From IMG/VR virus record IMGVR_UViG_3300020470_000053, positions 1 through 40,335 of that record: DNA of 40,335 nt. The stretch is one strand, 5' to 3'. The position numbers were made by a program, and so were the translations under genes. This stretch comes from a virus. A model generated the notes under the pieces. The model was not told the origin of the DNA. It ran no database searches and was given only the letters and a program-made list of their open reading frames with translations. Positions 29,508 to 32,266 of this stretch are shown piece by piece (positions within the stretch are counted from its first letter, which is position 1; every line of letters starts with the position of its first letter).

Positions 29508-29536
29508 TTGACAAAATTTAATCTTTTATATATAAT
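29508..29536 (+). promoter_or_regulatory. Consensus sigma70 promoter for hli genes
   Basis: TTGACA (29508-29513) and TATAAT (29531-29536) are separated by exactly 17 bp, both perfect. They lie 25 bases before the first hli ATG at 29561. Strong early expression by host polymerase is expected. Confidence 0.88.
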
Positions 29537-29560: not shown

Positions 29561-29770
29561 ATGACAACTTCAACAGACAGTATGAAGCGTTATACTACTA
29601 CTGAGTATGGTAAACAGAATATGTTTGCTCATGAACCTCAAGTAGAAGTTCTTGACGTTAATTACTGGGAGAATGCAGAACAAACTAATGGTCGCTTAGC
29701 GATGATTGGATTCTTTGCAGCAATCCATAACTACATCCTTACTGGGATGGTTATACCTGGCATCTTTTAG
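29561..29770 (+). CDS. hli: High-light-inducible protein (Hli)
   Basis: This 69-residue protein ends in the single chlorophyll-binding helix ENAEQTNGRLAMIGFFAAI, followed by a GMVIPGIF tail typical of cyanobacterial and cyanophage Hlips. The motif ExxNGRxAM is complete. Hlips protect photosystem II and chlorophyll pools under stress; phage copies sustain host photosynthesis during infection. A perfect promoter precedes it, so it should be expressed early. Confidence 0.95.
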   Translation: MTTSTDSMKRYTTTEYGKQNMFAHEPQVEVLDVNYWENAEQTNGRLAMIGFFAAIHNYILTGMVIPGIF

Positions 29771-29848
29771 ATACAAAGGTCTCTTACACCACTCGCACAG
29801 CGAGTTACTTTCTAACCCTATTACAAATCAAACGAAAGGAGAAAAACA

Positions 29849-29956
29849 ATGACACCCGAAGCAGAAAAGTTTAATGGCTGGATGGCCATGATCGGAATAG
29901 TAGCAGCACTAGGAGCCTACTCATTCACAGGACAAATCATTCCAGGCATATTCTAA
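29849..29956 (+). CDS. hli: Short Hli-like protein lacking the motif Arg
   Basis: A 35-residue protein has GAAAGGAG as ribosome site and reads MTPEAEKFNGWMAMIGIVAA. It keeps Glu and Asn of the ExxNGRxAM motif but has Trp where Arg is expected. The tail FTGQIIPGIF matches the first Hli. The Arg normally pairs with the partner helix's Glu, so loss is unusual. The stop overlaps the next ATG (TAATG), so the next Hli-like protein is translated from the same ribosomes. Confidence 0.85.
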   Translation: MTPEAEKFNGWMAMIGIVAALGAYSFTGQIIPGIF

Positions 29957-30066
29957 TGGACACTACAAGTAATATAGAAATTTGGACAAGAGCAAACGGT
30001 AGGTTTGCAATGATGGCATTTTGGGCTATCGTAGGTGCTTATACCCACTTCAAATATTTTACATAA
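29956..30066 (+). CDS. hli: Short Hli-like protein lacking the motif Glu
   Basis: A 36-residue protein (MDTTSNIEIWTRANGRFAMM) has the Asn and Arg of the Hli motif but Thr in place of the Glu chlorophyll ligand. The helix continues as AFWAIVGAYTHF. It is translationally coupled to the preceding gene, which lacks the Arg instead, so the two defects are complementary. Confidence 0.8.
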   Translation: MDTTSNIEIWTRANGRFAMMAFWAIVGAYTHFKYFT

Positions 30067-30106: not shown

Positions 30107-30304
30107 ATGGGCGACTTAGTAGCCGCATCAGATAGTATATCTCCATTAACAGCAATTCTATGGTGTTTTTATCCCATGGCTGCTTTAGTATTGGTTGAAC
30201 TCATTATGAGAGCAATCAATGATGATGACGATGATGATTTCCAAGGAGGTAAAGGAGTTCGTGTTAGACAAATGCAACCAGTCGCAGTCCCATCAGGAAC
30301 ATGA
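30107..30304 (+). CDS. Small membrane protein with acidic tail
   Basis: This 65-residue protein has one hydrophobic helix (ILWCFYPMAALVLVELIM, about residues 18-35), then a run of Asp residues (NDDDDDDF), GGKG, and a basic-to-proline tail. It sits among hli genes and shares its stop with the next hli start as ATGA. A CTAAATAC late-type box lies near 30067. Function unknown; association with thylakoid proteins is a guess from context. Confidence 0.65.
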   Translation: MGDLVAASDSISPLTAILWCFYPMAALVLVELIMRAINDDDDDDFQGGKGVRVRQMQPVAVPSGT

Positions 30305-30423
30305 TTGATTGGTCTCACCCATACTGGCGATTCGCTGAACGACTTAATGGTCGTTTAGCAATGGTCGGTGTAGTTATCTTAGTTTTAAAAAAATGCACTT
30401 TATACTTTTTGGCTGCATCTTAG
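30301..30423 (+). CDS. hli: Short Hli-like protein with complete motif
   Basis: ATG 30301 (overlapping the previous TGA) gives 40 residues, MIDWSHPYWRFAERLNGRLA and MVGVVILVLKK, with the full ERLNGR motif. The helix is followed by a seven-A run (30387-30393) and a short tail CTLYFLAAS. A frame -1 to it begins at ATG 30393 and continues as a hydrophobic peptide, so a frameshifted longer product is conceivable. Confidence 0.75.
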   Translation: MIDWSHPYWRFAERLNGRLAMVGVVILVLKKCTLYFLAAS

Positions 30424-30467
30424 CAGCAACTGCATATACTAATGTATTTTCATTTGTATTCCAATGA
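30393..30467 (+). CDS. Possible 24-residue membrane microprotein
   Basis: ATG 30393 lies inside the end of the preceding hli gene and encodes 24 hydrophobic residues (MHFILFGCILAATAYTNVF...). Its TGA overlaps the next ATG as ATGA. It could be a coupled microprotein or the -1 frameshift extension of the hli gene at the A7 run. It has no ribosome site of its own beyond an A-rich stretch. Confidence 0.4.
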   Translation: MHFILFGCILAATAYTNVFSFVFQ

Positions 30468-30577
30468 TACCATTAGAAGTACTTTTAAATTCAATACCTC
30501 CAGGCTCTAGAGATCTTTTAGAGTTTGGATTTTTTGTTTGTGTAGGAATAACAGCAGGTTCACTAGGAATAATATGA
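30464..30577 (+). CDS. Small membrane microprotein
   Basis: ATG 30464 to TGA 30575 encodes 37 residues with an N-terminal polar part (IPLEVLLNSIPPGSRDLLE) and one hydrophobic helix (FGFFVCVGITAGSLGII). Both ends overlap neighbours as ATGA. Coding is supported by that double coupling rather than homology. Confidence 0.5.
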   Translation: MIPLEVLLNSIPPGSRDLLEFGFFVCVGITAGSLGII

Positions 30578-31885: not shown

Positions 31886-32266
31886 ATGTCAACAATAACA
31901 AAACATAAACATGAAATCATGTGGTGGATGAGTAGACTAACAGTGATGGTAGTATCACTATTCCTTTCAATGACTTTAGCAGCACAAGCATATGCTGCAG
32001 AAATACAGATGGGTTCAGGAGGCATGTTAGTCTTTGAACCATGTGAACTAACGGTTGCCGTTGGTGAAAGTGTTACCTTTGTTAACAACGAACTACCTCC
32101 ACATAATGTAATGTTTGATGAACCTTATCAAGAAATGTCTCATAGTGATCTAGCATTTACATCTGGTGAAACTTTTGATGTTACTTTTGATACAGCAGGT
32201 GATTACTACTTCCAATGTGATCCTCATGCTGGTGCTGGTATGAAAGGAGTTATACACGTTAAGTAA
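31886..32266 (+). CDS. petE: Plastocyanin
   Basis: This 126-residue protein has a signal for lumen export (about residues 15-38, ending AQAYAA before EIQMGS). The mature domain carries the type 1 copper ligands: His in NELPPHNVMF, and Cys, His and Met in FQCDPHAGAGMKG. It shuttles electrons from cytochrome b6f to photosystem I. Phage copies are known in cyanophages and help keep electron flow going. It is coupled to the next gene by TAATG. Confidence 0.92.
   Translation: MSTITKHKHEIMWWMSRLTVMVVSLFLSMTLAAQAYAAEIQMGSGGMLVFEPCELTVAVGESVTFVNNELPPHNVMFDEPYQEMSHSDLAFTSGETFDVTFDTAGDYYFQCDPHAGAGMKGVIHVK

Follow-up and report, generated by a model that had tools for sequence, protein, structure and literature searches.

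A conserved half-motif high light inducible protein encoded behind a second Hli in a cyanomyovirus fragment and in ocean phages

Half-motif Hli proteins in known phages and in the window

Single-helix high light inducible proteins (Hlips) that pair as heterodimers have been described both in Synechocystis, where HliC associates with HliD, and in plants, where OHP1 associates with OHP2 (PMC12142464). Hlips dimerise and bind four chlorophylls and two carotenoids (PMC12142464), and a structure of ChlG2-HliD2 is also available (PMC13297055). The Glu and Arg of the ExxNxR chlorophyll-binding motif have been called ubiquitously conserved across the LHC superfamily (PMC3020630). Likewise, HliC and HliD are both described as carrying the chlorophyll-binding motif, whereas half of it is lost in the pair of proteins reported here. 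Among phages, the hli03-hli04 genes of P-SSM2 and P-SSM7 (PSSM2_274-275 and PSSM7_215-216; T4-GC 267 and 270) resemble this pair in their order, in their one-base overlap, in the Arg-to-Trp change of the first protein and in the absence of Glu from a second protein that retains Arg; their second protein, in contrast, keeps a TGNLIPG tail and has Leu, and not Thr, at the Glu site. The nearest match to both proteins in the annotated collection is the hli pair of marine virus AG-345-E08 (locus L008; 91% and 75% identity), whose second protein has Gln at the Glu site where ours has Thr. The Hlis of the podophages P-SSP7 (hliP) and P-SSP3 belong to the same FNGW class as the first protein, with 77-80% identity, but unlike it they are the only Hli of their genomes.

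The window, that is, the whole stretch of 40,335 nucleotides analysed, is identified as a T4-like cyanomyovirus fragment by its nrdA, nrdB and primase matches. PHROG 178 and profile searches detect four Hli genes in its hli cluster, all on the plus strand, and directly 5′ of them lies a candidate sigma-70-type promoter (TTGACA-17-TATAAT; 29508..29536, plus strand), recognised by consensus match (12/12). The cluster starts with a 69-aa Hli bearing the full motif (E, N and R; 29561..29770; PHROG 178, E=1e-22) and includes a short Hli (30301..30423) that also has E, N and R, is devoid of the C-terminal half and resembles hli06 of P-SSM2. These two full-motif members were absent from an earlier note on this DNA, which had dealt with the two genes between them. 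The first of the latter, coding for a 35-aa protein (29849..29956), is preceded by an AAAGGAG ribosome-binding site (29835..29841) and overlaps by one base the gene of a 36-aa protein (29956..30066), through a TAATG stop-start (29954..29958).

The ExxNxR motif is incomplete in both products, with coordinates and residues as the earlier note had given them. The 35-aa protein, MTPEAEKFNGWMAMIGIVAALGAYSFTGQIIPGIF, keeps Glu (E6; 29864-29866) and Asn (N9) and has Trp (W11; 29879-29881) at the site normally occupied by Arg, and the 36-aa protein, MDTTSNIEIWTRANGRFAMMAFWAIVGAYTHFKYFT, has Thr (T11; 29986-29988) at the site normally occupied by Glu and keeps Asn (N14) and Arg (R16; 30001-30003). Both match PHROG 178 'high light inducible protein' (E=3.2e-18 and E=3.5e-5, respectively), the 36-aa protein scoring under the Pfam Chloroa_b-bind cut-off. 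In addition, the 36-aa protein ends in YTHFKYFT in place of the TGxxIPG tail, an aromatic end that is a trait of its subclade. Both ORFs are real genes, since their relatives show dN/dS values of about 0.11-0.13 and dozens of contigs have the two genes in this order.

Relatives were collected by gathering Hli-cluster loci from annotated phages, viral contigs and bacterial genomes via degenerate DNA patterns, and by a profile search over all six-frame ORFs of these loci. The resulting set comprises 1010 Hli ORFs and 636 distinct cores, of which 393 have both Glu and Arg, 153 just Glu and 90 just Arg, and large selected Hli subclasses in which one of these two residues is missing are present in marine picocyanobacteria and their phages. 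In this profile search of the collected loci, none of the 636 distinct cores lacked both residues; two cores initially flagged as double losses turned out to be Glu+Trp Hlis cut at contig starts. Measured by branch length, the absence of double losses is not significant (P 0.19-0.36), and it is often expected by chance because the loss of Glu has a single origin.

The Arg-less FNGW class

By its sequence, the 35-aa protein is an ordinary member of an Hli class, 'FNGW', in which Arg is changed to Trp and which corresponds to the cyanophage core cluster hli03. A large class of annotated Hlis has the Arg-less motif as its norm (276 of 936 Hli ORFs, from a sample selected in part by the same motif), so that the motif marks a subclass, not exclusion from the Hli/Hlip proteins. 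Arg has been lost in several Hli lineages, with 8 changes on the best tree. Glu, Asn and Gly are invariant in the FNGW class (Glu and Asn across 246 sequences), the invariance of Asn and Gly alone being independent, because the class is defined by Glu and Trp.

Several observations bear on whether this class requires a Glu-less companion. The sole Hli in the whole genomes of the podophages P-SSP7 and P-SSP3 is of the Arg-to-Trp FNGW type, which contradicts the idea, put forward in the earlier note, that an Hlip present in single copy would normally carry Glu as well as Arg. Many Prochlorococcus genomes carry an FNGW Hli, and a Glu-less Hli lies nearby in 0 of the 32 such loci flanked by 1.5 kb or more on each side. 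Among viral contigs selected for the FNGW motif, about a quarter have a Glu-less Hli as the following gene and about a third a full Hli; in another third, no Hli follows. In addition, hli03 is a core gene in all 16 cyanomyoviruses of one comparison, whereas hli04 (T4-GC 270), to which the Glu-less proteins of P-SSM2 and P-SSM7 belong, is among the sporadically distributed Hli clusters (PMC3037559). The occurrence of FNGW Hlis alone in podophages and hosts, together with the core status of hli03 versus the sporadic distribution of hli04, indicates that the Arg-less protein is independent of the Glu-less one. The residue behind the Trp is Met in 87 of the 98 FNGW Hlis that precede a Glu-less gene, versus 9 of 98 viral ones that do not; this residue could be either a lineage mark or a co-adaptation.

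The Glu-less clade and its gene neighbourhood

The 36-aa protein belongs to the Glu-less RANGR clade. In a tree computed without the trait columns, all Glu-less proteins, together with the host relatives without Asn, form one clade (22 representatives, support 100/99). Arg is invariant in 119/119 distinct Glu-less gene sequences, in which it is specified by four synonymous codons, and Gly is also invariant; the Glu site holds ten different amino acids, Q being the commonest. Thr at this position, as in the window, is rare (5 of about 138 Glu-less ORFs, one of these with Gln at the Asn site). Gln at the Glu site could still ligate magnesium. Purifying selection acts on both classes (dN/dS 0.11-0.13), the value for the Glu-less class being 0.13, and, together with the invariance, it would agree with functional retention of one half of the motif.

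The RANGR form of the Glu-less Hli is seen in phages only: 151 Prochlorococcus genomes contained no R-A-N-G-R-x-A-M site, and the 3 detected in 151 Cyanobiaceae genomes all lie within Glu-keeping proteins. Host relatives read SNKxILERSIGRPAM and, in some Prochlorococcus, adjoin FNGW Hlis from behind, which suggests that the pairing may predate the loss of Glu. Two Prochlorococcus loci, L480 and L481, encode host Hlis with N/I/R and D/I/R for E/N/R, so that both chlorophyll ligands are changed and Arg is kept; these Glu-lost host relatives have no Hli directly upstream.

A search for the same paired losses in other cyanophages, proposed in the earlier note as a check, revealed that they recur widely and that the pair is common in ocean phages. 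A Glu-bearing Hli lies directly upstream of every phage Glu-less gene with readable upstream DNA (134-135/134-135), with 0 of these 134-135 cases away from one. This neighbour is Arg-less in about 105 cases, or 106 in one count, and a full Glu+Arg Hli in 29. Among the latter, the complete podophage genome NATL1A-7 contains only a full-motif Hli and a Gln-substituted partner, and 9 of the 29 are flanked on each side by 1.5 kb or more, with no Arg-less Hli in the DNA available. Moreover, near-identical Glu-less proteins are found with either kind of partner, e.g., at loci L031 (E/W) and L075 (E/R). The pooled association of an Arg-less first gene with a Glu-less second gene gives an odds ratio of 9.7, which is not taken at face value because the Trp or the Glu-less motif had served to select some of the sets; in the Hli-tail sample, picked irrespective of Glu or Arg, an Arg-less Hli precedes 7/8 Glu-less versus 13/28 Glu-bearing second genes (odds ratio 8, p=0.053).

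The one-base stop-start overlap is present in 88 of 111 distinct Glu-less pairs, and 96 of the 111 second genes have no Shine-Dalgarno-like motif. In the window, only a weak AGG stands upstream of the start of the 36-aa gene, so its translation is probably dependent on coupling. Full-motif second genes overlap the previous Hli in the same way (65 of 105 in viruses and 17 of 27 in hosts), and TAATG as a feature special to this pair is thus ruled out. The related proposal that this junction would yield equal amounts of the two proteins had to be rejected, since tandem Hlis of every kind commonly show the overlap and a 1:1 ratio does not follow from coupling.

The earlier note had further suggested an obligate complementary heterodimer, in which each protein would need the other and a single Glu-Arg salt bridge would hold them together. 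The prevalence of Arg-less Hlis ahead of Glu-less genes (about 105 of 134), the bias in the Hli-tail sample and the Met after Trp all speak for such a dimer, but we regard it as very improbable: P-SSP7 and P-SSP3 have no Hli other than the Arg-less member, and hosts also carry this member with no Glu-less Hli, which refutes an obligate rule for it, and 29 Glu-less genes, including that of the whole genome NATL1A-7, stand behind full Glu+Arg Hlis. In addition, the loss of Glu corresponds to a single clade, so that co-loss is not testable by independent events. What stands of the suggestion is the recurrence of the paired losses and the constant position of the Glu-less protein, which, when each protein was looked for alone in other phages, was behind an Hli in every case with readable upstream DNA, as opposed to the Arg-less one. 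The dependence, if any, would therefore be one-way, the Glu-less Hli going with a Glu-bearing Hli that is usually, not always, Arg-less.

Possible partners of the Glu-less protein

A conserved half-motif Hli, coupled to another Hli and seen in its RANGR form in phages only, is a real and modestly new finding. As to its role, we give about an even chance to the reading that it is a half-motif phage Hli, coupled in translation, that would pair facultatively with Glu-bearing Hlis as Arg donor. What the sequences show directly is the order of the genes, the geometry of their coupling, the lost motif residues, selection on those that are retained, and the clade. The 35-aa and 36-aa genes would be part of a cyanomyovirus hli operon, in which the former would provide an Arg-to-Trp Hli of the standard, host-derived kind, able to act without the 36-aa type in other phages and hosts, and the latter a Glu-less Hli made by translational coupling to a Glu-bearing one. 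The 36-aa protein would most likely pair facultatively, either with its 35-aa neighbour or with full-motif Hlis of the operon or the host, the Glu-bearing Hli presumably having other partners as well. It would give the dimer its invariant Arg and one Asn chlorophyll site, and no Glu site. By analogy with the Synechocystis Hlips, from which dimerisation, pigment number and photoprotective role are carried over, the mixed dimer might have fewer or altered chlorophyll sites and might, in the infected cell, fine-tune quenching or the binding of chlorophyll close to photosystem II.

Work on LIL3 bears on this reading in two ways. Changing its Glu or Arg weakens chlorophyll binding five- to six-fold and changing its Asn abolishes it, and the E171 or R176 mutants form no dimer, even with the wild type (PMC6320596). 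By analogy, these results support the notion that half-motif proteins would be poor homodimers. On the other hand, a mixture of mutant and wild-type LIL3 would keep one E-R pair and yet yields no dimer, so one salt bridge may not suffice. The failure of these single-residue mutants to pair with the wild type, together with the presence of L480 and L481 without an upstream Hli, counts against facultative pairing. The fixed gene order also counts against it, as it may simply be inherited, given that the Glu-less clade arose once and that ILERSIGRPAM relatives already stand behind FNGW Hlis.

Inheritance of the adjacency is part of a somewhat unlikely alternative, neutral drift in a redundant multi-copy hli family, any copy of which could afford to lose one residue because other copies, or host Hlis, supply full motifs. 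It would account for the full-motif Hlis in the same cluster, the ten residues at the Glu site, the repeated losses of Arg and the non-significant absence of double losses. Drift, however, is at odds with the dN/dS values of 0.11-0.13, with the residues that stay fixed in each class (Arg and Gly in the Glu-less one; Glu, Asn and Gly in FNGW), and with a coupled position that is constant while the upstream partners vary (E/W, E/Q and several E/R types). It is quite unlikely that the Glu-less protein is instead a helix that does not dimerise or is poorly pigmented, with D1, chlorophyll synthase or an assembly factor of photosystem II as its partner; replacement of the TGxxIPG tail by an aromatic end in the window's subclade and the loss of Asn, another chlorophyll ligand, in host relatives would agree with such a partner, against which stands the constant coupling to an Hli gene.

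A further reading, which we consider unlikely, would make the protein a dedicated cyanophage Arg-donor half-Hli, always co-translated with a Glu-bearing Hli, so that phage dimers with one Glu-type chlorophyll site, and not two, would quench or pass chlorophyll unlike host Hlips. In any case, a natural half-motif pair represents a simple test of how many salt bridges and ligands are needed per Hlip dimer, and a way to ask if phages change the pigment stoichiometry of photoprotective complexes.

Other elements of the window were noted along the way. At 30393-30467, the ATG that follows a run of seven A opens a hydrophobic ORF of 24 aa, which overlaps the short Hli (30301-30423) at its end, and tiny overlapping ORFs continue in a chain as far as 30577; a strong terminator-like stem-loop with a T run lies at 30499-30529, within a small ORF (30464-30577) matching PHROG 17067. 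Further away, a big block that reads as sugar epimerase and glycosyltransferase-like genes occupies 12.8-28.2 kb, from the nrd genes to the hli/petE region, the plastocyanin gene petE is found at 31886-32266, and the 5′ part of what reads as a psbA-like gene extends from 39863 to the end of the window.
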